DNA of 64,000 nt, taken from positions 434,001 to 498,000 of the forward strand of contig NZ_RCZD01000001.1 of the NCBI RefSeq assembly GCF_006438725.1, written 5' to 3'. Of the stretch, positions 27,947 through 45,900 are shown one piece after another; within the stretch, counting starts at the first letter, position 1; the number at the start of each line of letters is the position of its first letter. Under the pieces are notes generated by a model that was given only the letters and a program-made list of their open reading frames with translations, was not told the origin of the DNA and did not search any database. The position numbers were made by a program, and so were the translations under genes. Source of the stretch: Ewingella americana (GTDB lineage: Bacteria > Pseudomonadota > Gammaproteobacteria > Enterobacterales > Enterobacteriaceae).

Positions 27947-28019
27947 GATTATTCTGCGTAATTTTTAATGTAAGCAGAATTTTAATCCCTGGAAATGACA
28001 TAAATATTTCAGGGATCAC

Positions 28020-28172
28020 CATGTCACTCACCCAATGCGTATTTGGGGCTGGAACAACGAACTGGCGTTCAAGATAATTGGGGCTGGCAACTGAAGGTTT
28101 TCCGCCCCCGTAATAGCGTCGTTTTCGGTATCCAGTCTGAGACGCTAATTCAGCGAACCTCATGAGGTGCAC
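28020..28172 (-). pseudogene. IS3-family transposase (OrfB) remnant
   Basis: About 50 codons match the pre-catalytic part of IS3-family OrfB: 'ASQTGYRKRRYYGGGKPSV', then 'SPNYLERQFVV' and 'NTHWVSD', where the first catalytic Asp of DDE belongs to the WVSD segment. After this the frame runs into unrelated sequence and there is no remainder of the DDE domain, so it is a dead fragment. It lies at the left edge of the AT-rich island and marks a past insertion or deletion. Confidence 0.75.
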
Positions 28173-28469
28173 GATCCTGTTACCGTCCAGGGGGGCACGC
28201 CAAATGAGGCAAAAAAGTGTCTACGAAATCCGGATCTATTCCGTTTTGATGCAGTAAGTGTAATAAAAAAGTTAATTATTATGTCATGCTGTATTAAATA
28301 TTTTAATTTAAAATATTAATATTCAATTTGTCAACAAAATAGAGTTCATTTTTTTCATTTCAAACACATATCAGAGCAATCGTTTGCTTTAAAAAGGAAA
28401 GCAGCCTCAAATTGCAATAAAAAGAGAAAATAAAGCACAGATTTCTACTCATCGCTTTAATGGCGAATT
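28173..28469. other. AT-rich non-coding stretch left of the biosynthetic operon
   Basis: The first about 90 bases may be further IS-derived debris (AAAAAGTGTCTACGAAATCC and neighbours). From about 28260 on, the composition becomes strongly AT-rich with no open frame of note. The base composition changes sharply compared with the chemotaxis gene to the left. Confidence 0.5.
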
Positions 28470-28503
28470 ATTATTTTTTTGCTGATAATAGCAAAAAAAT
28501 AAT
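28470..28503. repeat. Perfect AT-rich inverted repeat just upstream of the operon promoter
   Basis: Perfect 14-base arms (28470-28483 and 28490-28503) with loop GATAAT, including T7 and A7 runs. A second short stem (GGCGA at 28462-28466 with TCGCC at 28503-28507) can extend it. It ends a few bases before the -35 box of the operon promoter. It may be an operator or UP-like element, or a terminator insulating the operon. Confidence 0.55.
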
Positions 28504-28507
28504 CGCC

Positions 28508-28535
28508 TTGACTATTGTCCCTCCAGGTTTAGAAT
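28508..28535 (+). promoter_or_regulatory. Sigma-70 promoter of the biosynthetic operon
   Basis: TTGACT (28508-28513), a 16-base spacer and TAGAAT (28530-28535) fit the sigma-70 consensus with one mismatch per box. The promoter leaves a leader of about 80 bases before the GTG start at 28625. Confidence 0.6.
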
Positions 28536-28624
28536 CTTCCGCAGAGTATATATAGAGAGTTCACCTTCGCTCGGATGAATAATCTATTTTAGAAATCTCA
28601 AACCAACAAAATAAAGGAATAATT

Positions 28625-29413
28625 GTGCCTATCAACAACCCAATATGGAGTCAGGAAGAGTTAACTGGCAATATAAAATACAACAAAGACTTAGCCACAA
28701 TAATAAAAAACAACGCATGGCATGGACTATTTGAATCACCCAAATGGATTTTGATGAACCCCGCCGATGAAGTTATTGACTTTTATCATAAATACATCGT
28801 TAACCCCTCTTTAGCTTTACGTAATCGATTCTCACTTTCTGGCAATAAGCTCCATGATCTCGGTTGTGGTGGCGGACGTCATCTGTTTTACTTTAATGAA
28901 CGAGGTTTTGAGGTTACGGGCAGTGATTTGTCTGAAAATGCCATTGAGTTTACAAAGTCTGAATTAGCACGCCGTCAACAAAGCGCAGAACTCGTTCTTT
29001 GCCCAATGACAGAACTCCCCTTTGAAAATGATACATTTGATATTACTGTATCTCGTGCTGTTATCAACCACGCCTCTTTACAGGATGTTAAAAAAACCAT
29101 CTTTGAAGTTGCCCGCACAACCAAACAAGGTGGCCTATTTTTCGTCACTTTCTCTTCGGAACGTGCATCCGATTGGAAAAAAGGTACGGAAGTTGAAGAG
29201 GATGTCTCCTATATTCCAGAGTCTGGCCCGGAAAAAGGTCTTATTCATACTTTCCTGAATGCTGCAGCCACATCAGCTCTGCTCGAACCGTTTTTCCGTA
29301 TAGAAGAAATTTACTTGTACGAACACCCGTCTTGGGTAACTGATGCTCCTGGCGCCTCGAGTCCAAATGAATATTTTGGTTCTGAATACGTCGCTATTTG
29401 CGTGCGCCGCTAA
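28625..29413 (+). CDS. SAM-dependent methyltransferase, first gene of the island operon
   Basis: A 262-residue class I methyltransferase. The start is GTG with AAGGA six bases upstream. Motif I is 'LHDLGCGGGRHLFYF' with the following 'VTGSDLSENAIEFTK', and motif IV is 'NDTFDITVSRAVINH', typical of small-molecule methyltransferases of the UbiE/COQ5-like group. The first about 60 residues carry Trp-rich sequence of unknown role. It opens a run of eight co-directional genes. Probable role: methylation of the pathway product or an intermediate. Target atom unknown. Confidence 0.85.
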   Translation: MPINNPIWSQEELTGNIKYNKDLATIIKNNAWHGLFESPKWILMNPADEVIDFYHKYIVNPSLALRNRFSLSGNKLHDLGCGGGRHLFYFNERGFEVTGSDLSENAIEFTKSELARRQQSAELVLCPMTELPFENDTFDITVSRAVINHASLQDVKKTIFEVARTTKQGGLFFVTFSSERASDWKKGTEVEEDVSYIPESGPEKGLIHTFLNAAATSALLEPFFRIEEIYLYEHPSWVTDAPGASSPNEYFGSEYVAICVRR

Positions 29414-29485
29414 TATTATTTAGCCATGGCAGTTTCTCGCAATGGAGGGCTGCCACTTATTTTGTGGTGTTCAAGGTATTTAAAG

Positions 29486-30007
29486 ATGATATTGACAGGA
29501 AAATCCATTGAGGAATTTGTCAGGAATGGTGACATTTCCATATCTCCTTTCTCCAAAAATAATATAACAACAAATTCTTATGATCTTACTTTAGGATGCC
29601 AATTTATTCGGTATAGTGAAGAGGTTATGGATCCTAAGAAAGAAAATAAATACGATATTATTGAGTGTGGCCCTGAAGGCATATTACTGAGCAAAGGGGA
29701 TTTTCTATTAGCTCATAGCATTGAAAAACTCGGCAGTAATAAGTATGTTCCCATTATTCACGCCAAATCCAGTATCGCCAGGCTGGGGCTCTTTGTGCAT
29801 ATCACAGCAGACTTAATTGACATTGGTTCATTTGGCTGTGTAACCTTCCAGTTGCATAGCACCTTACCGATAAGATTATTTCCCGGAATGAAAATAGGCC
29901 AAGTAACGTTCTGGAAACCTCTGGGGGAGATTATTCCCTACAGCGGGAAGTATCAGGGTTCTGTGGGGCCGAGGGCATCGATGGCTTATTCAGATTTTAA
30001 AGTGTAA
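29486..30007 (+). CDS. dCTP deaminase-like protein 1, catalytic Glu replaced by Gln
   Basis: A 173-residue protein of the trimeric dUTPase/dCTP deaminase fold. The start at 29486 gives MILTGKSIEEF, parallel to the next gene; the longer frame adds 20 residues of hairpin sequence. Family marks are 'HAKSSIARLGLFVHITADLID' (S95, S96, R99, D112) and 'FPGMKIGQVTFW', and the C-terminal 'YSGKYQG' tail. Where E. coli Dcd has the catalytic Glu138 (in CIVLEF), this protein has Gln122 (CVTFQL). In E. coli that Glu is required, so ordinary dCTP deamination is unlikely unless the partner supplies it. Confidence 0.82.
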   Translation: MILTGKSIEEFVRNGDISISPFSKNNITTNSYDLTLGCQFIRYSEEVMDPKKENKYDIIECGPEGILLSKGDFLLAHSIEKLGSNKYVPIIHAKSSIARLGLFVHITADLIDIGSFGCVTFQLHSTLPIRLFPGMKIGQVTFWKPLGEIIPYSGKYQGSVGPRASMAYSDFKV

Positions 30008-30037
30008 TAATCAAACAATTCAACATGGACTCAGAAT

Positions 30038-30550
30038 ATGATTCTTACCGGCAGCGAAATAAAAAAGAGAACCGCCAGTAACGACATTACTATAATTCCA
30101 TTTAATGAAAAACAATTAAATCCAAACAGCTATAACTATTGTTTAGGCCCACGATTAGGTATTCCTAACCTCACTGGGAATAATGTTTCTTTTGACTTTA
30201 TCGATCTCCCTCCAGAGGGATTTGTAATGGATGCTGGAACCACTTATTTGGGGCATACGCTGGAGATTTTGGGTAGCAATAAATTCGCTATGTCTCTGAT
30301 TGGGCGTAGCTCTTTAGGACGTCTAGGCCTTTTCTTGCAAGTTTCAGCTAATCTTGGACATACCGGGGCCTGCCATCAATGGACATTGGAGTTAGTTGCT
30401 ACCCGCCCTTTCCGACTCTATCCTGGTATGCGTATCGGTCAAATATCTTTCTGGGTTAATCAGGGTTCTCCGGGTCTGTACCATGGGGGATATTCCGCCT
30501 ACAACAACCCACAAGTGTCGAAAATAGTACCATTGGTTGAGTCTGTATGA
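30038..30550 (+). CDS. dCTP deaminase-like protein 2, conserved Asp replaced by His
   Basis: A 170-residue paralogue of the preceding protein, with the same start MILTG and the core 'IGRSSLGRLGLFLQVSANLGH' (S91, S92, R95). It keeps the catalytic-type Glu118 (WTLEL) but has His108 in place of the Asp that follows VTAHRI in E. coli Dcd. The end is 'LYPGMRIGQISFW' and a Tyr/Asn tail. The stop overlaps the next start as ATGA. The two proteins may assemble together as mixed trimers, since Dcd active sites lie at subunit interfaces (inference). Confidence 0.82.
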   Translation: MILTGSEIKKRTASNDITIIPFNEKQLNPNSYNYCLGPRLGIPNLTGNNVSFDFIDLPPEGFVMDAGTTYLGHTLEILGSNKFAMSLIGRSSLGRLGLFLQVSANLGHTGACHQWTLELVATRPFRLYPGMRIGQISFWVNQGSPGLYHGGYSAYNNPQVSKIVPLVESV

Positions 30551-31611
30551 TGAATATTACCAGTAAAACACTCAGTGATAATAAACTGCATCTCATGGCA
30601 TCAGAAAAAGTGCGTGCTAAAGAGGCTTTTTCACAGGCTTTTTCGGGGGCTGGTTTTACTTTTCATCAACCTGATGGATTGATACCCAGCCATGATAAAT
30701 CCACCCTATTTACAGGCTCTACTATTAGTACCTTTAAGCCTTATCTGCAACAAAATGCGGGACTTGTTCTAAATCCTATGTTTACGGTTCAGGACTGTTT
30801 ACGCACCCAAAATAATCTTGCGATGCAAGATGTAGTCAATTACCCCAAATGGTCTTCTCTGTTTAGTAGTGTAGGCGCAATCGGGCGATATCAGGATCGC
30901 TATCTAATAGTTCAGGCTTTGCGTGATTTCATCTCTAACCTGGAGCTGAATACTCCTGCGCGTCTGCGGATTAATATTGCTAGCCTGGACCATGATATTA
31001 TTGACATGCTGGAGGCTGGAGGGATGGCTGATTATCTCCATTTTGATAGCCAACAACCAGCCTATTACTGCCATAAGTTTGGTATGGATGGCATTACTGG
31101 CCGAAACTGCAACCTTGCCGTCAGCAGTGATGGCGAAACGTTTATGGACATTGGTAATCTCATTGTCATTGAGTCAGCACAGGCACCGCTTGGTGTTGAA
31201 GCGGCATTCGGGCTTGAAACCATCGTCACGCGTATGCATGGGTTGTGCAGCTCAATTCTGGCTTTGAGCGCAGCCACTTGCTTTTCAATCCACTCAGCTG
31301 AAAACTTGTACATCATTGATGCATTGGTTGCCTGTGTCGCCATCATGTCATTCGATATCCAACCTATAGCGAATAATCGAGGCAGAGTTTTGCGTCGATA
31401 TCTTCAAGGCCTAAATCAGTTACGCTTAAAAAATAGTATATCAATCGAATTTATTGCAGATGCTGCCAGACATTTCGAACTAACCCATTACAAAACACAG
31501 CATATCTATAAGAGGATTGAACAATATCTGCAGCAGCATACATTGTTAGTAGTACAAGACCTGACATTATCTAATATTAACATGCGCCTATCCCACAGCT
31601 TGTACAAATAA
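30547..31611 (+). CDS. Stand-alone alanyl-tRNA-synthetase-like catalytic core
   Basis: A 354-residue protein that follows AlaRS order without the editing and C-Ala domains. It has 'LIPSHDKSTLFTGSTISTFK' (residues 45-64; AlaRS LVPHNDPTLLFTNAG..), 'QDCLRTQ' (82-88; QRCVRAG), 'WSSLFSSVG' (102-110; HHTFFEMLG), 'GMDGITGRNCN' (179-189; MGDTGPCGPC), 'VEAAFGLETIV' (218-228; motif 3) and 'NNRGRVLRRYL' (276-286). The motif 2 Arg-Glu pair and the motif 3 Arg appear as Lys101/Ser and Thr225. The adenylate site may therefore be altered. Possible roles: amino acid activation in biosynthesis, or a repurposed pseudo-synthetase. It overlaps the upstream gene by 4 bases. Confidence 0.72.
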   Translation: MMNITSKTLSDNKLHLMASEKVRAKEAFSQAFSGAGFTFHQPDGLIPSHDKSTLFTGSTISTFKPYLQQNAGLVLNPMFTVQDCLRTQNNLAMQDVVNYPKWSSLFSSVGAIGRYQDRYLIVQALRDFISNLELNTPARLRINIASLDHDIIDMLEAGGMADYLHFDSQQPAYYCHKFGMDGITGRNCNLAVSSDGETFMDIGNLIVIESAQAPLGVEAAFGLETIVTRMHGLCSSILALSAATCFSIHSAENLYIIDALVACVAIMSFDIQPIANNRGRVLRRYLQGLNQLRLKNSISIEFIADAARHFELTHYKTQHIYKRIEQYLQQHTLLVVQDLTLSNINMRLSHSLYK

Positions 31612-31632
31612 ATAACAGGATATTATTTAGAT

Positions 31633-32412
31633 ATGAAACTTGGTGTTATTTCTGATATCCATGAAGATGTTGTCCGGCTTGAAGAATCGTTAAAACTATT
31701 CGAAGCTCTTGGAATAGATGATGTGGTTTGCCTGGGTGATATCGTTGGTTATTCTGTACCCTTCTATGGTTATCTTAAGACGAGAAATGCTAACCGTTGT
31801 GTGGAATTGATACAAAAAAACTGTTGTGCCGTGGTTATTGGTAACCATGATCTATTTGCTATTCGCAAGGTGCCTTCTGCAGCGGCAGACTTTGTTTACC
31901 CTGCTGATTGGTATCAGCAGGACTATGAGCAGCGTAAGTTATTAGCCGATAAAAAAATATTCCTTTATGAAGACCACGAATTACCAAGCCTACTCAATGA
32001 CAATAACCTTAGCTATTTAAACTCATTACCAGAAAAAATCATCAAATCCTTTTCCACTCATAATTTATTGCTCTCTCACTACGCACTGCCTGACATTACC
32101 GGTTCATGTACCCATGAAGTCAAAACTCATCAGGATCTTGCAGCACATTTTGCCTTTATGGATGAGCATCGTTGTCTGCATGGCTTATCAGGCAATGATC
32201 ATATTCCGGGCATGAAAGTATTTACTCCTAAGCATGTTGTCCAGACTGGATTCGAACGTCATGAATTAGGGACATCCGTCGCCTGGATAACCGGGCCAAC
32301 ACTGTCTAAAGGCACGATGGAAAATGGCGTCATGATCTATGACAGCAAGGAGATGTCCATTTCCTCAATTGCACTCGGCACACCATTGCATCAGATTCCG
32401 GCCACCATCTGA
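31633..32412 (+). CDS. Calcineurin-like metallophosphoesterase
   Basis: A 259-residue enzyme with the dinuclear metal motifs in order: SDIHED (residues 7-12), 'GDIVGYS', 'IGNHDLF', 'LLLSHYALPD' and 'GLSGNDHIPGMKV', where the usual GHTH is GNDH. The overall pattern resembles ApaH/YfcE-like phosphatases, with an insertion after GNHD that carries 'YPADWYQQDYEQRK'. AGGA precedes the ATG. In the operon it could dephosphorylate a nucleotide-like intermediate, perhaps before export (inference). Confidence 0.83.
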   Translation: MKLGVISDIHEDVVRLEESLKLFEALGIDDVVCLGDIVGYSVPFYGYLKTRNANRCVELIQKNCCAVVIGNHDLFAIRKVPSAAADFVYPADWYQQDYEQRKLLADKKIFLYEDHELPSLLNDNNLSYLNSLPEKIIKSFSTHNLLLSHYALPDITGSCTHEVKTHQDLAAHFAFMDEHRCLHGLSGNDHIPGMKVFTPKHVVQTGFERHELGTSVAWITGPTLSKGTMENGVMIYDSKEMSISSIALGTPLHQIPATI

Positions 32413-32440
32413 ATCGGTTTATACCAACGAGACGAATCGA

Positions 32441-33679
32441 ATGAATAACTATATTTTATACATTAATGGTCGACAAAATCCTCATGAACGGATGGCAGAA
32501 ATGCGCGCAGCACGTTCTTTGGGTCTGAACATTGTGCTTATGGCTAAAAACATACCGGCATATGCCGCTGTATTAGCCATCGAAACCGTCACTGTTGATT
32601 TGGATGATTTCGAAACTTGTCTCGGCGTCGCCAGTTTGTTGAATAAAAAGTATGCTTTTAAAGGCATTGTCTGTTGGTCGGAAACAGATGTTCCGCTTAA
32701 AAATTTTCTCGCGAACGAATTACATCTTGCAGGCATGAGTGCGCAGGCCGTTCGCCATAGCCGCGATAAAATTGCCATGAAACAAAAGGTAAAACATCTT
32801 GGCTCGATGATTCCTCGTTTTCAAGCAGTCATCTCTTTACTGAGTGCGAAAAACGCAGCAAGGCAGATAGGTTATCCGGTGATCGTCAAACCTGCATCAG
32901 GTTCGGGATCAAAAGGTATATTTAAAGTTAACAACGACCACGCATTAGAGCAGGCGCTTAGTCAACTTTCAAACATCGCTACAGACTCCTTTGATACGGT
33001 ATTCAGTGCATTTGGGGGGGAGATTATTCTTGAAGAGTTTATTGAAGGGCCTGAGTTTAGCGTAGATGGTTATGTGTCTGACGGGAAGATTACAGTCATC
33101 GGTATCACTGACTATCAGTCTGATCCAGTAACCTTTGTGGAAAACCGTCATATATTTCCTTCTAACCATAGCGATCCCATACAGGATGAGATCGAACGCT
33201 GTGCGCGTCAGATTGTCGAATCACTAGAAATAAATAATACTGTTTTCCATCTGGAAGGAAAATACTCATGTAACGGATTTAAATTTATTGAGTGTGCCGC
33301 CAGACCAGCCGGTGGGTACATATCGACCCATCTATTACAGCATGCCAGCCGTCACCAACACTTACAAAACTATGTCCAGGTTTGCTGCGCAATTCAGCCG
33401 TCAACTTTACGCTTAAGCGGAGATTATATCGGCGTACGATATTTATTTGCAGAAAAAAATGGCACATTACACAGTATAGATAACGTGACCAAAGTACTGA
33501 ACCATCCTAACATTCAGCATCTATATTTACATTTCTCCCCAGGGCATATTGTCACATTACCACCCGAGGATTACAGCGCTTATCGTCTCGGTGTAATTAT
33601 TGGTACGGGCGAGGATTACAATCAGCTTGCCGATACCTTAGAATGGGCAGCAGAACAAATAAGGTTTACAATCAAATGA
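32441..33679 (+). CDS. ATP-grasp ligase 1
   Basis: A 412-residue ATP-grasp enzyme of the L-amino acid ligase/carbamoyl-phosphate-synthase-like group. I chose the ATG at 32441 (MNNYILYINGRQ), since the longer frame reads out of the previous gene. Marks are 'GYPVIVKPASGSGSKGIF' (ATP loop), 'GEIILEEFIEGPEFSVDGYV' and 'FIECAARPAGGYIS' (metal site). The C-terminal part resembles a LAL_C2-type domain. It should form an amide or ester through an acyl phosphate. It ends in an ATGA overlap with the second ligase. Confidence 0.82.
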   Translation: MNNYILYINGRQNPHERMAEMRAARSLGLNIVLMAKNIPAYAAVLAIETVTVDLDDFETCLGVASLLNKKYAFKGIVCWSETDVPLKNFLANELHLAGMSAQAVRHSRDKIAMKQKVKHLGSMIPRFQAVISLLSAKNAARQIGYPVIVKPASGSGSKGIFKVNNDHALEQALSQLSNIATDSFDTVFSAFGGEIILEEFIEGPEFSVDGYVSDGKITVIGITDYQSDPVTFVENRHIFPSNHSDPIQDEIERCARQIVESLEINNTVFHLEGKYSCNGFKFIECAARPAGGYISTHLLQHASRHQHLQNYVQVCCAIQPSTLRLSGDYIGVRYLFAEKNGTLHSIDNVTKVLNHPNIQHLYLHFSPGHIVTLPPEDYSAYRLGVIIGTGEDYNQLADTLEWAAEQIRFTIK

Positions 33680-34908
33680 AAAACGTCCTAATCTTATTTG
33701 GGTGTGCATCACACCGTCAGGGACCACGTGCTATTTCTCAAGCTCACTCATTAGGGCTCAATGTTATTCTGGTTGATACTCAGGATAATGTCGAAAATCT
33801 ATCAGCTAATGCTCCGCAGAACATTCAAATTTATACAGTAAGCTCAAAAGATTATGATGCTTGCTTTCCGCTAATCAAATCACTGTGTACAACATTTCCG
33901 GTAATTGGAATTTATACTTTTGAAGAGTATTCCGTGGAAACCTGCTCGCGTCTTTGCGCCACGTTGGGTTTCATCAATAACCCAACGGCGGCCATATTAC
34001 GAATTAGGAACAAAAACAGTTGTCGTCAAATTCTCTCTGAAAATGGCTTGCCGCAGCCGGAATTACACATTTTCAACAATCTGCAACAGGCCTGTTATTG
34101 TTTACAAACCCAACCGACTGGAGGTGGAGATTGGATTCTTAAACCTATCGACGCCTCAGGTAGCCAAGGAGTCAGTCGTATAACCAATAATGGCATACAT
34201 CAACTGCACACAGCATTTTCCAGATTGACTTCCACTCAACAGGAAGGGTTTATTATAGAAAAATTTATTATTGGTAAAGAATTTAGCCTTGAGGGATTCT
34301 TTCATTATGGCGAGCCAATATTTCAAGGCATCACAGAAAAAGCCCTTAAGCCGGGCAGTAGTTTTGTAGAAGATATGCATATCTTCCCTGCTGAATTGCC
34401 TATAGAAACGAGAAATGACGTTTTTGCGGTGGCAAAAAAAGCCTTACATTGTGTTGGGTTGATGTTTGGGCATTTTCATCTGGAGTTTTGGATTTCTGAC
34501 TGCCAAATCATCATTGGTGAAATTCATAGTCGACCAGGTGGCGATTACATTCATCTTTTAACAGAAGTCGTGACAGGTATTCCCACTTATGCGGCGGTAT
34601 TCCAACAATATATTGAATCTGCATCTTGTCATGAACCTGCTCCCACAATCACTCACCGATGCGCCGCTGCGGTGAAATATTTCGATGCCCCAGAGGGTGA
34701 ACTGATTGCGATCTACGGAATAGCTGACTTACAAAAAAAGAATCAAATAATACTGACTGAAATCACTGTTAAACCCGGAGAAATACTTCCACCATGTACT
34801 GAGTCTGGTAAGCGCGTGGGATGTGTTGTTGTTCGGGAGGAAAGTAGTGACAAGGCAAAACACACTGCAATGGAGATGGCAGCATATGTCCACTTTGACA
34901 TCCTCTAA
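33676..34908 (+). CDS. ATP-grasp ligase 2
   Basis: A 410-residue ATP-grasp enzyme, divergent from its neighbour. The ATG at 33676 overlaps the previous stop. Marks are 'NVLILFGCASHRQGPRAI' (N-terminal Rossmann-like domain), 'DWILKPIDASGSQGVSRI', 'GFIIEKFIIGKEFSLEGFF', 'GEIHSRPGGDYIH' (metal and phosphate site) and 'VEDMHIFPAE'. The C-terminal 'TVKPGEILPPCTESGKRVG' fits a LAL_C2 domain. Two successive ligases suggest two condensation steps. The acceptor and donor are unknown. Confidence 0.82.
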   Translation: MKNVLILFGCASHRQGPRAISQAHSLGLNVILVDTQDNVENLSANAPQNIQIYTVSSKDYDACFPLIKSLCTTFPVIGIYTFEEYSVETCSRLCATLGFINNPTAAILRIRNKNSCRQILSENGLPQPELHIFNNLQQACYCLQTQPTGGGDWILKPIDASGSQGVSRITNNGIHQLHTAFSRLTSTQQEGFIIEKFIIGKEFSLEGFFHYGEPIFQGITEKALKPGSSFVEDMHIFPAELPIETRNDVFAVAKKALHCVGLMFGHFHLEFWISDCQIIIGEIHSRPGGDYIHLLTEVVTGIPTYAAVFQQYIESASCHEPAPTITHRCAAAVKYFDAPEGELIAIYGIADLQKKNQIILTEITVKPGEILPPCTESGKRVGCVVVREESSDKAKHTAMEMAAYVHFDIL

Positions 34909-36091
34909 AAACAGCATGTCCTTGATGACCATCGACTCATTTTTATTCTCGTTCACCTACTTTATGACATTGTCGATCCTGGCTTTGTATATGGATGCAT
35001 TTCTTGGCCTGTCGGCATTAGAAACTGGCAGTATTATTATGGTGTCCTCTATTGGTTCTAAGGTCACACGCTTGCTGATTTCGCCATTTCTGGACTTGAT
35101 TACACCAGCATACTTAGTTTCTCTTTCGGCCTTTACGATGAGCCTGAGTTGCATCACTATCGCCCTTTCGCAACAGTACCTGCCAGTATTGTGCGCTGTA
35201 GGTTTTTTTGGCATTGCTTATGGAAGTAACAGCATTTTAATCCGTGCTGTCGCGGGAGCAACTGATAACACTCATATGCGTACTGCGTTCTTTGTCCGAT
35301 TGTCCGTCATCACAAATCTGGCATCCATGCTGGCACCATTAATCGCCATTTATCTTTATAACCACATTTCGCCACGCCTACCTTTCTTAGTTGCTTCTTT
35401 CCTGATGTTCTGTTTCTCACTCGCGCTCTTGAGGAGCCACGAATTATGGCCTCCCCTGGCTGCGCAAAAAAAATGGACGCATGCATTACGTGAACAGCTG
35501 GGTGACAAAACGTTGCGACACTATTTTCTACTAACAGCGCTATGCTGGATGATCTATTCCCAATTATTTACATCTTTACCGTTACATATTAATCAGCTTA
35601 TGGGATCCACTAGCCAATTTGGTTATATAATGACGTTTAATGGTATCCTTTCCATAATGCTAGCTCCCAGGTTACAGGCACTATTTACACACTATAAAAT
35701 CAACACATTCCAGACACTTTTCTTTTCTTTGGCGGCCCATGCGATGGGATCTTTATGGCTGCATTACGCTACAACGCTAACAGAACTCTATTTTGCTATC
35801 TTTGTCTGGACGTTAGGTGAGTTGCTACTAATCCCGACATTACAAAGCTGTATTTCGGGCTATTCTGCCAAAAATATTCTCATCAGTGTTTTGGCCATCA
35901 ATTCTATTGCTATGGGAATCGGCGAAGGTCTGGGGGGGTTTCTCGGCATCTACTTGATCAAAAATTCAAGCTACTGCTTCATGATATTTTTCGCTCTGAC
36001 AGTGCTCACTCTGGGGTATGTTATTGCCTTCAAGCCCTTGTTTACACCAAATGGCGATGACCTGGCAATTAACGACAAACCAGCATGTTAG
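34886..36091 (+). CDS. MFS transporter (probable exporter)
   Basis: A 401-residue membrane protein with about twelve hydrophobic helices. The ATG at 34886 (MSTLTSSKNS) overlaps the second ligase by 23 bases and has GGAG 12 bases upstream, so it is translationally coupled. A later ATG at about 34916 is possible. The loop 'SIGSKVTRLLISPFLDLI' resembles the conserved MFS loop 2-3. It would export the pathway product and may give self-protection (inference from position). Confidence 0.82.
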   Translation: MSTLTSSKNSMSLMTIDSFLFSFTYFMTLSILALYMDAFLGLSALETGSIIMVSSIGSKVTRLLISPFLDLITPAYLVSLSAFTMSLSCITIALSQQYLPVLCAVGFFGIAYGSNSILIRAVAGATDNTHMRTAFFVRLSVITNLASMLAPLIAIYLYNHISPRLPFLVASFLMFCFSLALLRSHELWPPLAAQKKWTHALREQLGDKTLRHYFLLTALCWMIYSQLFTSLPLHINQLMGSTSQFGYIMTFNGILSIMLAPRLQALFTHYKINTFQTLFFSLAAHAMGSLWLHYATTLTELYFAIFVWTLGELLLIPTLQSCISGYSAKNILISVLAINSIAMGIGEGLGGFLGIYLIKNSSYCFMIFFALTVLTLGYVIAFKPLFTPNGDDLAINDKPAC

Positions 36092-36101
36092 TTTAAACGT
36101 T

Positions 36102-36165
36102 AAGCAGTTTACAACTAAGACTAAGTATCTGGCTTGTTGTGGCTTTTTCTGAGGGTAAACTGCTT
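36102..36165 (+). repeat. Inverted repeat after the island operon
   Basis: Perfect 11-base arms (36102-36112 and 36155-36165) are separated by 42 bases. It lies in the gap between the convergent MFS and protease genes. There is no T run after it, so it is not a classical terminator. Confidence 0.35.
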
Positions 36166-36194
36166 CTAAAGAAAATTAATGTCAGAACGGTTAA

Positions 36195-36869
36195 CTATTT
36201 CTGACTAATCACTATTTGTTCAAAGATTTCATGGCCAGGATAGTGACGCTGCAACGTAGTATTAATATCCATACGTATAAATTGGCCATTTACTCTAAAA
36301 AGACCGTAATTAGGATCTAGAAAATAGTACTCGCCTGAGGATATACGGACTAATGCGACTGCATGCATCGTATTTTTAAATTGGGGGGCTGAGACACCAA
36401 AAATAACACCACAGGATTTACCAAAATATTTCAACCCTTGAAATAATGAAAACCCACCAGATTTAGAATAAGAATATTCCAAACCAGGATTTTCGCTGTT
36501 TTTTTCCAACTCTCTCTGCCGATTATTCTTATAATGCGCAGTGAATTCCGCAGATCTCACTCTTGCATTAGAGCTATTCGTCCCATTTATACCCACACGT
36601 GTTTCATAATTTTTCTGCCGTCTCGCCGCCCTTTCCAAAAAATGTATAAACTCTTGTCGATCAACCGGGATATGTACATGCATCACCGAAGGAGCCGAGG
36701 AAAACCAACCCGGCACCCATCTTTCAAGGAGATTTTTTTCTGTTTTCACCGGGCGATTTTTTAAAATATCACCAAGCCAGGTCAGGCAGAAACCCATACA
36801 AAAACCTTCGGATTTATGCGTATTAAGAAATTCATTATAGTTACGCTGAAAATTAACAATCAATTCCAT
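36195..36869 (-). CDS. YopT-type (C58) cysteine protease
   Basis: A 224-residue protein with the C58 triad pattern: Cys24 in 'SEGFCMGFCLTWLGD', His169 in 'NTMHAVALVRI' and Asp185 in 'YYFLDPNYGLFRVNG'. The His/Asp segments closely follow the YopT/AvrPphB consensus (HAVAL, FFDPNYG). It has no signal peptide or long N-terminal secretion region, unlike many type III effectors, and Cys28 is a second candidate nucleophile. It converges with the island operon and is AT-rich. The role could be an effector, toxin or processing enzyme. Confidence 0.75.
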   Translation of the reverse strand: MELIVNFQRNYNEFLNTHKSEGFCMGFCLTWLGDILKNRPVKTEKNLLERWVPGWFSSAPSVMHVHIPVDRQEFIHFLERAARRQKNYETRVGINGTNSSNARVRSAEFTAHYKNNRQRELEKNSENPGLEYSYSKSGGFSLFQGLKYFGKSCGVIFGVSAPQFKNTMHAVALVRISSGEYYFLDPNYGLFRVNGQFIRMDINTTLQRHYPGHEIFEQIVISQK

Positions 36870-37164
36870 TTGGACATCCTTTCAACCTTCTCCATAAACA
36901 CCATCACAACAAATTCAACCATGGCGGGACGATTTATCATTTTCATCGCGTAGAGGAATATCTATTCGTGATTATTTACAACCTGTTCATTTCCTGAGAA
37001 TGACTAATAGACAATGTATAATCATCTCGTCACACCTATTTATTATAATCAACAAATAATAAACCGCCTCAACATCTCATATAACCCACAGTATAATAAA
37101 GGCTAATATTATAAATAACAATGGGCATTTCAATAAGAAACATGCCTTATTAAATATTCGGGTG
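36870..37164. other. AT-rich non-coding gap right of the protease gene
   Basis: No open frame or RNA I can support. It probably holds the promoter of the minus-strand protease gene (GGATGTCC region just upstream of its start) and marks the right edge of the AT-rich island. Confidence 0.45.
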
Positions 37165-37212
37165 AACAAAAACAAATAACCCATGCAAATTAATTTATAT
37201 GGGTTATTTGTT
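37165..37212 (-). terminator. Terminator of the left ferric-type ABC operon
   Basis: Perfect 14-bp stem (37171-37184 with 37199-37212) and 14-base loop. On the minus strand it is followed by TTTTTG, and it lies 5 bases beyond the stop of the ATPase gene. Confidence 0.8.
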
Positions 37213-37217
37213 AGCAC

Positions 37218-38288
37218 TTATACTTTAGGGAAAATCCATACATCATCGACAGGCAGGGAAAGACGGCACATCTCCTGGCCCCGCACGTCGTTGCCGTAAG
37301 CCCGCACCACGAAGTCCTCAGCCACCGTACGGAACAGGTACTCCCAGCGGTCACCAAGGTACATGCTGGTCAGTAACGGCAGTTCTATCTGGTTGCCATC
37401 CGGGTTGTCCCCCATGCGCACACGTTCCACACGGATAACGGCGGTCCCCTCCTCACCAGCCTTCACGCTTTCGCCCGCCTGCCCCCAGAGAACCCAGTCT
37501 TTACCCTCAATGCGGGCTTTGCCGTCACGCACTTCAGTCACTTTGCCATGCAGGCGGTTATTGCTGCCCATGAATTCGGCGGTGAAGAGTGTTTTCGGCG
37601 AGCCGTACATCTCCTGTGGCGTACCTTGTTGCTCTATTTTTCCGTTATTGAGCAGCAGAATACGGTCGGAGATCGCCATGGCTTCATTCTGGTCGTGCGT
37701 CACCATCAGCGCCGACAGGCCGAGCTTGATGATCAGTTCCCGCAAGAACACGCGGGCTTCTTCGCGCAGCTTGGCGTCGAGGTTGGACAGCGGTTCATCG
37801 AGCAGGATCACCGGCGGGTTGTAGACCAGTGCGCGGCCAATCGCCACGCGCTGCTGTTGTCCACCGGATAGCTGATGCGGATGCCGCTTACCAAGATGGC
37901 CAAGGCCGAGCTGATCAAGTACCGCTTGCACCCGCTGGGTCAGTTCCGATGAGGCGACCTTACGCAACTTCAACGGATAGGCGACATTCTCAAACACGGT
38001 TTTGTGTGGCCAGAGTGCGTAGGACTGAAATACCAGCCCGAGGTTACGCTCTTCTGCCGGGATCTCACTGCGTGAACTGCCGTCATATACGGTATTTTTA
38101 CCGATAATAATGCGCCCCTGCGTAGGCTTTTCCAACCCGGCCACGGCTCTGAGCAGCGTGGTTTTACCGCTGCCGGAAGGCCCGAGCAGCGAGACAACTT
38201 CCCCGCGTTTTAGATCCATGGAAACGCCCTTTAACACCGGATTGTCGCCATAGGTTAAGTGCAGATTCTCGACCGATAATTCAATCAT
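37218..38288 (-). CDS. ABC transporter ATP-binding protein (FbpC/PotA-like)
   Basis: A 356-residue ATPase. The ATG at 38288 overlaps the permease stop by 8 bases and fits the family start 'MIELSVENLHLTYGDNP'. Marks are Walker A ([18 protein letters not shown]), signature ([19 protein letters not shown]), Walker B (VILLDEPLSNLDAKLR) and 'MVTHDQNEAMAISDRI'. The C-terminal TOBE-type regulatory domain has 'GSNNRLHGKVTEVRDGKARIEG'. Substrate class: ferric iron, polyamine or organophosphate. See the receptor for why iron is not certain. Confidence 0.88.
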   Translation of the reverse strand: MIELSVENLHLTYGDNPVLKGVSMDLKRGEVVSLLGPSGSGKTTLLRAVAGLEKPTQGRIIIGKNTVYDGSSRSEIPAEERNLGLVFQSYALWPHKTVFENVAYPLKLRKVASSELTQRVQAVLDQLGLGHLGKRHPHQLSGGQQQRVAIGRALVYNPPVILLDEPLSNLDAKLREEARVFLRELIIKLGLSALMVTHDQNEAMAISDRILLLNNGKIEQQGTPQEMYGSPKTLFTAEFMGSNNRLHGKVTEVRDGKARIEGKDWVLWGQAGESVKAGEEGTAVIRVERVRMGDNPDGNQIELPLLTSMYLGDRWEYLFRTVAEDFVVRAYGNDVRGQEMCRLSLPVDDVWIFPKV

Positions 38289-45541: not shown

Positions 45542-45629
45542 TGGCGGAGGAGGAGAGATTCGAACTCTCGAATGGTTTCCCATCGCCGGTTTTCAAGACC
45601 GGTGCCTTCAGCCCCTCGGCCACCCCTCC
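45542..45629 (-). tRNA. serT: tRNA-Ser(UGA), copy 1
   Basis: An 88-base tRNA on the minus strand with encoded CCA. The acceptor stem is GGAGGGG paired with CUCCUCC, the anticodon loop CUUGAAA gives UGA, a long variable arm is typical of serine tRNA, and the T arm contains GUUCGAAUC. It differs from copy 2 by one base in the D loop (C45614 on the plus strand against G45885). Confidence 0.95.
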
Positions 45630-45812: not shown

Positions 45813-45900
45813 TGGCGGAGGAGGAGAGATTCGAACTCTCGAATGGTTTCCCATCGCCGGTTTTCAAGACCGGTGCCTTCAGCCGCTCGGCCACCCCTCC
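45813..45900 (-). tRNA. serT: tRNA-Ser(UGA), copy 2
   Basis: An 88-base tRNA on the minus strand with encoded CCA and the same UGA anticodon as copy 1. The D loop reads GAGCGGC, the common serT form as I remember it, where copy 1 has GAGGGGC. The copies are 271 bases apart. Confidence 0.95.

Follow-up and report, generated by a model that had tools for sequence, protein, structure and literature searches.

Aminoacyl and short peptidyl nucleotides are a kind of product already known from microcin C and ascamycin, and MccF of the microcin C system cleaves aminoacyl nucleotides. A reference title agrees with this activity of MccF (PMC6429109). In the ascamycin pathway of Streptomyces sp. 80H647, AcmF is a truncated alanyl-tRNA synthetase (AlaRS)-like protein that has lost most ATP-binding residues and carries the substitutions N219Q and D232E; according to the main text of a review (PMC12945691), it transfers alanine from Ala-tRNA to a nucleoside sulfamate, on which its Trp100 and Phe104 are modelled as stacking. 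Bifunctional dCTP deaminase/dUTPase enzymes are known from M. jannaschii and M. tuberculosis. According to passages of PMC3360063, the water used in dUTP hydrolysis is coordinated by Asp128 (Asp119 in M. tuberculosis), which also touches the 3′-OH; hydrolysis needs Ser102, Asp119 and Gln148, and in deaminase-only enzymes it is blocked by Arg126. The locus compared here with these systems is an eight-gene operon of Ewingella americana, located in a stretch of 64,000 nucleotides (the window; assembly GCF_006438725.1, contig NZ_RCZD01000001.1, positions 434,001 to 498,000 of the forward strand). This operon probably serves to make an aminoacyl or short peptidyl nucleotide and to release it from the cell, and the product most likely inhibits an aminoacyl-tRNA synthetase (aaRS). 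A sequence-only reading of the window had guessed at a peptidyl or aminoacyl nucleoside antimetabolite, and this guess is largely supported by an AcmF-like AlaRS core, by MccF-clade peptidases, and by spare seryl-, glycyl- and prolyl-tRNA synthetase (SerRS, GlyRS and ProRS)-type genes in related clusters.

The run of eight same-strand genes (window positions 28625-36091) is confirmed by the list of open reading frames (ORFs), and the families first named for all eight agree with Pfam and NCBIfam profile searches of the encoded proteins. All are on the plus strand. The first gene encodes a SAM-dependent methyltransferase, MT14 (28625-29413, GTG start; PF08241, 3.9e-20), and is followed by two genes of the dCTP deaminase (Dcd) family, the type A dcdA (29486-30007, longest ORF from 29426; PF22769, 2.4e-33) and the type B dcdB (30038-30550; PF22769, 5.5e-26). 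The AlaRS-like protein, a catalytic core with a helical domain and the proposed aminoacyl transferase, is encoded at 30547-31611 (PF01411, 7.4e-6), and a calcineurin-type metallophosphoesterase, MPE15, at 31633-32412 (PF00149, 1.9e-9). Two ATP-grasp ligases with LAL_C2 domains, of the L-amino acid ligase type, come next: ligase 1 at 32441-33679 (longest ORF from 32339; PF13535, 7.6e-25; PF18603, 2.1e-12) and ligase 2 at 33643-34908 (likely start 33676; PF13535, 1.2e-17; PF18603, 8.7e-13). The last gene encodes a major facilitator superfamily (MFS) transporter, the presumed exporter (34823-36091, likely start 34886 or 34916; PF07690, 5.7e-25). The four overlapping junctions initially reported are present with the longest ORFs; with the starts common to relatives (29486 for DcdA, 32441 for ATP-grasp ligase 1 and 33676 for ligase 2), one overlap is lost and two are shortened. 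The phosphoesterase and ligase 1 genes are then free of overlap, the two ligase genes overlap by 4 bp, as do those of DcdB and the AlaRS-like protein, and ligase 2 overlaps the MFS gene by at most 23 bp, given an MFS start at 34886.

All eight genes are found in identical order in Serratia nevei (L025), S. plymuthica (L026) and Erwinia typographi (L027), with 43-93% protein identity and with flanking genes that differ from those of the window. The same eight families occur in another phylum, in Paenibacillus massiliensis subsp. panacisoli (L104), in a changed order (methyltransferase, DcdB, DcdA, AlaRS-like, phosphoesterase, ATP-grasp, MFS, ATP-grasp), and its ATP-grasp proteins share only 22-24% identity with those of the window. 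[Clostridium] polysaccharolyticum (L075) has a five-gene core of methyltransferase, phosphoesterase, DcdB, DcdA and AlaRS-like genes, with a second GlyRS gene downstream. Identity to the window's methyltransferase is 93, 93 and 80% in L025, L026 and L027, 67% in L104 and 60% in L075. Co-occurrence in distant genomes, which the sequence-only reading had suggested looking for, is thus seen as a shared order in three Enterobacterales and a shared set of families in Paenibacillus. Since the eight-gene order recurs in three other species beside other flanks, the grouping is more than chance. That the eight genes are unrelated neighbours is extremely improbable: gene order does differ in Paenibacillus and [Clostridium] polysaccharolyticum, as such a view would have it, but the order is identical in three species with other flanks and the five-gene core is common to two Firmicutes. 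The set was absent from titles, abstracts and listings in paper searches limited to the open-access literature, in keeping with the earlier view that the cluster is undescribed.

The AlaRS-like protein (354 aa) scores 25.2 bits against PF01411, under the cut-off of 30.3. Its AlphaFold2 model (pLDDT 92.2) has the predicted fold of an AlaRS catalytic fragment, and the best PDB match of the model is the AlaRS fragment 9jc7 (TMq 0.73, E 1.2e-14). At motif 3 the Arg is replaced by Thr225, and an Asp is replaced by Glu218, at the position of D232E in AcmF; the window's W102 and F106 correspond to Trp100 and Phe104 of AcmF in position and spacing, rather than by comparison with the AcmF sequence. The motif 3 Arg is found in none of 20 AlaRS-like family members, the window protein included (Thr in 18, Lys in 2), versus 10/10 full-length AlaRS, of which nine belong to small-genome relatives within the family and one to Streptomyces (L142), with FULL_L015 left out as out of register. 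The set of 20 (A4) is without the two L032 sequences of set A2, one of which has an ordinary AlaRS motif 3, and the two short pieces of L031 were never in it. Within this set the Asp is changed to Glu in 17 sequences, and the AlaRS His site is occupied by Trp, Tyr or Phe. The protein had first been taken for an amino acid activating enzyme; because the motif 3 Arg is gone, it probably performs no ATP-dependent activation. The likeness to AcmF lies in a truncated core without ATP-binding residues, with the same Asp to Glu change.

Among 295 genomes of the family, the window's AlaRS-like protein matched its own gene and 18 genomes of 0.2-0.8 Mb; 16 of these matches lie in frames of 857-903 aa, taken to be AlaS, and the frames of the other two (G198, G272) are 446-448 aa long. 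AlaRS-like cores also occur in five Streptomyces loci without a Dcd match in the stretch (the four best matches and the genome of L122, at the top of a list from 392 genomes). The motif 3 Arg is gone in all five, an S66 peptidase gene is nearby in four, an ATP-grasp gene in four, and an MFS-model match in two; the fifth locus (L142) combines a full AlaRS with an aaRS core, a methyltransferase and a radical SAM gene. If the family works as proposed, it would carry AcmF-type, tRNA-dependent chemistry well past ascamycin. On a plasmid of Exiguobacterium (L015), an AlaRS-like gene and an AlaRS gene are found together, and Dcd was unmatched in the stretch that was read.

Of the two Dcd proteins, DcdA scores above the cut-off of TIGR02274 (99.4 bits, cut-off 92.8) and DcdB below it (55.5 bits). 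DcdA keeps Asp128 and has Gln in place of Glu138 and Leu in place of Arg126. DcdB keeps Glu138, which has a role in deamination, and has His in place of Asp128. Asp128 and Glu138 stand together in neither of them, and both are present in the canonical Dcd copy of the same genome (L105); judged by these residues, the window Dcd proteins are not ordinary dCTP deaminases. This split was followed in 89 fetched Dcd loci, comprising 9 plasmid loci and the best 80 of 323 relatives from a GTDB genome scan with a DcdA alignment. The scan used two DcdA patterns containing Gln157 and KYQ residues, so selection accounts in part for their presence in type A; the patterns did not include Glu138, Asp128 or Arg126, or any of the B copy. 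In alignment A1, the divergent L021 and L023 and the B copies were left out. The Dcd alignment holds 182 sequences from the 89 loci and the window, plus the canonical Dcd of the window's own genome.

Exactly one of the two acids is lost in 178/182 sequences, with 89 keeping Asp128 and lacking Glu138, and 89 the reverse. Both are kept in three third copies (L060, L096, L101), as in the canonical copy, and both are lost in one type A copy, that of L067 (Asn/Gln). With types assigned by Asp128 and Glu138 themselves, all 90 type A sequences (L067 included) have Ser111, Gln157, Leu or Ile at the Arg126 site, and Gln or Met at 138, and all 89 type B sequences have Glu138, Gly127, and His, Asn or Gln at 128. 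Type B is also without Arg126 (88 Leu, 1 Val) and has Gln157 in 85 sequences; the types are thus cleanly separated by the two acids only. A tree rooted on the canonical Dcd separates groups of 86 and 93 sequences, nearly the same split as that by the acids, and with midpoint rooting the types were not separated. Counting the window, 84 of the 90 places have one A and one B copy, three have A, B and a third copy, L023 has one A and two B copies, and in L041 and L095 only A is visible. The A and B starts are at most 700 bp apart in 84/89 fetched loci (exceptions L023, L033, L041, L088 and L095). As these loci indicate, the two genes of the core Dcd pair accompany each other in many bacteria and in some archaea, from Proteobacteria to genomes labelled as candidate phyla radiation (CPR) and DPANN; these and some other labels are metagenome-bin labels, which may be wrong for individual contigs.

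Type A resembles the hydrolase half of the bifunctional enzyme and type B the deaminase half, because of the residues each keeps. DcdA has the Ser, Asp and Gln that PMC3360063, in the passages cited above, gives as needed for dUTP hydrolysis, and is without the blocking Arg; Gln148 was mapped to position 157 with the offset of nine seen between Asp119 and Asp128, a mapping of our own. DcdB, of the same family, has Glu138. Unlike the bifunctional enzyme, the window has two adjacent genes, each without one acid. We infer that DcdA and DcdB form one complex. It is a serious possibility, though short of an even chance, that this is an obligate mixed complex in which a bifunctional dCTP deaminase/dUTPase has been split into complementary half-dead subunits, possibly reusing the phosphate-attacking site to join an amine to the alpha-phosphate, and that it is the common entry to a large, so far unrecognised family of nucleotide natural products whose range extends from Enterobacterales to CPR bacteria and DPANN archaea. 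The residue split makes the idea of a mixed-subunit enzyme directly testable. Neither the complementary Dcd pair as a nucleotide module nor its reach into CPR- and DPANN-labelled genomes was described in the open-access literature searched. Adjacent Dcd genes, one without Glu138 and the other without Asp128, would be a simple sequence signature for flagging uncharacterised clusters, and the signature also flags clusters in genomes labelled CPR and DPANN. To our knowledge, natural product genes have rarely been reported in these lineages.

The neighbours of the Dcd pair vary among the 89 loci. Within the 6 kb counted on each side, a range that many contigs do not reach, a GT4-type glycosyltransferase is found near the pair in 16 loci and a P-loop kinase-like protein also in 16. 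Because other loci carry GT4, kinase-like or weak TIR-type proteins, the pair is broader than the window's pathway and, by its neighbours, serves other pathways too. As an alternative to an exported inhibitor, the Dcd pair and the AlaRS-like protein might modify a macromolecule (tRNA, DNA or a surface glycan) with an aminoacylated nucleotide. The GT4 genes and the presence of Dcd pairs in CPR- and DPANN-labelled genomes would fit such a role. An MFS gene is, however, part of the window-type sets of Serratia, Erwinia and Paenibacillus, and the patchy presence of the operon, whose AlaRS-like gene occurs in 1/6 genomes of the genus (the window's own), is atypical of a housekeeping modification; this explanation is unlikely.

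Enzymes with dCTP deaminase activity are also known in defence, and the Dcd pair could in principle deplete dCTP as a component of an anti-phage system. Besides this precedent, a protein family (c59) adjoins the pair in L083, L085 and L096, and the member in L096 matches TIR weakly (26.7 bits, under the cut-off of 28). However, PADLOC left seven of the eight proteins unmatched, both Dcd proteins among them at E 0.01, and the sole match was that of the methyltransferase to the mad2 model, over the methyltransferase stretch. With ligases and a transporter as the partners of the pair in the window, a defence system is very unlikely there.

Several other arrangements of the pair were observed. In L083, L085 and L096 (Nocardia, Lentzea), it stands with a kinase-like gene and a gene for a protein of 660-690 aa, whose L096 copy has a weak TIR match under the Pfam cut-off; these loci may form a defence-like subclass. 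Four Clostridia metagenome-assembled genomes (MAGs; L076, L090, L091, L094) combine an NrtR-type regulator family, a kinase-like gene, the Dcd pair and a 236 aa protein (c33) with no Pfam match. In Enterococcus caccae (L047, 8715-17630), the pair is found with two carbamoyltransferase-family genes, an aaRS core, two ATP-grasp-like genes and a methyltransferase, and the cluster of a Chitinophagales MAG (L048), which has a second SerRS, resembles it. Mycothiol-type assembly uses a glycosyltransferase, a deacetylase and an aaRS-like ligase. A Streptomyces plasmid cluster (L018, 11447-18199) with the Dcd pair, a PIG-L deacetylase, GT4 and a ProRS-like gene resembles this.

The product proposed for the window, an aminoacyl-nucleotide inhibitor, is suggested by candidate immunity genes of related clusters. 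S66 peptidases are encoded in 14/89 Dcd loci, and 12 of these 14 are among the 22 loci with an AlaRS-like match (11 of 21 when L032 is left out); Fisher tests on such counts treat loci as independent, which related loci are not. The profile of these peptidases (set A3, 14 of the 15 listed sequences, with the second L031 copy left out) matched MccC-family/MccF structures (2.6e-125 to 9e-70) more strongly than murein tetrapeptide carboxypeptidases (1.4e-45 or weaker), which fits the MccC/MccF clade. A second SerRS was found in two of three genomes tested (L035, L048) and a second GlyRS in the one genome tested (L075). In all four Streptomyces genomes tested (those of L059, L065, L066 and L068), a long ProRS-type insertion is shared by the cluster copy and a second gene (domains shown for L065); a ProRS is also present in L084, where it is not established as spare. 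Immunity to aminoacyl-nucleotide inhibitors would be expected to look like these MccF-clade peptidases and spare aaRS genes, and their linkage points to protein synthesis as a target.

A number of observations weigh against such a product. Neither an S66 gene nor a spare aaRS gene was found among the profile-searched proteins of the window's island. The one MccF-like match in its own genome is on contig C37, unlinked to the operon, and is also present in congeners without the operon. Two Serratia genomes (G302, G303) have no S66 match, and the strong S66 match of the Paenibacillus genome is on contig C2 of G299, with the cluster on C9. The SerRS beside L097 is the sole SerRS of that genome above the cut-off. 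In the AlaRS-like protein, Asn204 is kept in the window where AcmF has N219Q, with Gln at this site in 5/20 family members, and three of the five Dcd-less Streptomyces cores have Gly instead of Glu at the Asp site. Finally, a search for four class II aaRS types within 6 kb found none in 55/89 Dcd loci, so that the pair also occurs in other pathways. The island without a recognised immunity gene would suit a non-toxic signal or metal-binding metabolite made from a nucleotide and amino acids. The MccF-clade peptidases and spare aaRS genes of related clusters fit a toxic aminoacyl nucleotide instead, and a harmless metabolite is the less probable product, though more credible than a modified macromolecule.

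The phosphoesterase keeps the DxH, GDxVG and GNHD motifs in six aligned sequences, and its predicted model is poor (pLDDT 68.6). LAL_C2 was matched in the two ATP-grasp ligases at 47.6 and 48.8 bits (cut-off 29.4), and the best PDB match of both is the L-amino acid ligase 3vot (4.7e-20 for ligase 1, 1.1e-18 for ligase 2), with about 26% identity between the two. MFS genes are also present in the L104, L051 and L035 loci. The methyltransferases of different clusters were considered as one orthologous group and rejected as such, as their profiles match over 53-198 columns at only 12-27% identity.

The sequences show the gene set, its conservation, its arrival as one block, the complementary loss of residues in the Dcd proteins and the AcmF-like residue change; the pathway that we infer from them includes the reactions, their order, the product and the target. 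DcdA and DcdB would first act jointly on a nucleotide, probably a pyrimidine, with B keeping the acid for deamination and A the acid for attack on the alpha-phosphate, much like a split bifunctional dCTP deaminase/dUTPase. The nucleotide would then be tailored by the methyltransferase and the phosphoesterase, and the AlaRS-like protein would transfer an aminoacyl group from aminoacyl-tRNA to an amine of the nucleotide, like AcmF in ascamycin. One or two further amino acids might be added by the two ATP-grasp ligases, which may mask toxicity and aid uptake by a rival cell, before the product is exported by the MFS protein.

Compared with the described systems, the putative pathway shares with ascamycin the AlaRS-like core and, in some relatives of the window cluster, a spare aaRS, as AcmD is. 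Unlike the ascamycin cluster, the window's island has two ATP-grasp ligases and no spare AlaRS, and no Dcd pair is described in the review (PMC12945691), the word "deaminase" being absent from its main text. With microcin C it shares the aminoacyl-nucleotide logic and the MccC/MccF clade of the relatives' peptidases; unlike microcin C, it has no S66 gene in the island and no match to the MccB-type (E1-like) family among the eight window proteins in Pfam and NCBIfam. L-amino acid ligases and ATP-grasp dipeptide enzymes (BL00235, BacD, DdaF) have the same ATP-grasp and LAL_C2 domains, but in the window there are two copies, set in a nucleotide pathway. Puromycin and cystocin are likewise aminoacyl nucleosides derived from a nucleotide with removal of phosphate, but the NUDIX hydrolase, dehydrogenase and aminotransferase of their pathway, described in passages of PMC11641026, were not found among the eight window proteins by Pfam and NCBIfam.

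The operon lies within an inserted block of about 9.2 kb (28017-37222, borders approximate), which has a chemoreceptor gene on one side and an ABC transporter gene on the other. In three congeners (G295, G169, G253), the sequences matching the two flanks lie only 35-40 bp apart, compared with about 9.2 kb in the window, which thus carries an insertion because these congeners have an empty site; in two others (G024, G296), the right flank was matched at the site and the left flank was not. The A+T richness first noted for the region is borne out by the G+C content, which is 0.38-0.43 in all nine 1-kb bins between 28 and 37 kb, versus 0.47-0.60 in most others, and a second low-G+C stretch (0.43-0.47) is located near 56-60 kb. 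By this comparison of sites, the operon was acquired as one block. The left border of the block contains a remnant of an IS3-family transposase gene (28020-28188). It is 90.5% identical to IS3 transposase genes carried by Pantoea and Duffyella plasmids, and further copies lie on contig C23 of the same genome and in G169.

At megablast sensitivity, searches of the E. coli, plasmid and phage collections returned no copy of the operon. A plasmid origin was considered and rejected, as the best-matching place in each of 11 plasmid records is the IS3 remnant and not the operon, and a phage origin likewise, with the operon unmatched in the phage collection. Among 5426 E. coli genomes, a single 42-base match was found in one genome, inside the left border and outside the operon. 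A repeat of 38-42 bases at the left edge of the insertion (28204-28245) recurs on contigs C5, C9 and C23 of the same genome and in G024 and G169, with a single occurrence in E. coli EcPF16. Near the right border, a 21-base inverted repeat (37171-37212) is spacerless and 90% complementary. The same insertion contains, on the minus strand, a gene similar to those of YopT-type C58 cysteine proteases (36195-36869; PF03543, 6.6e-7), which scores 28.5 bits against TIGR01586, under the cut-off of 52.95. Further downstream in the window, two tRNA-Ser genes with the same anticodon, TGA, are found near each other (45542-45629 and 45813-45900).

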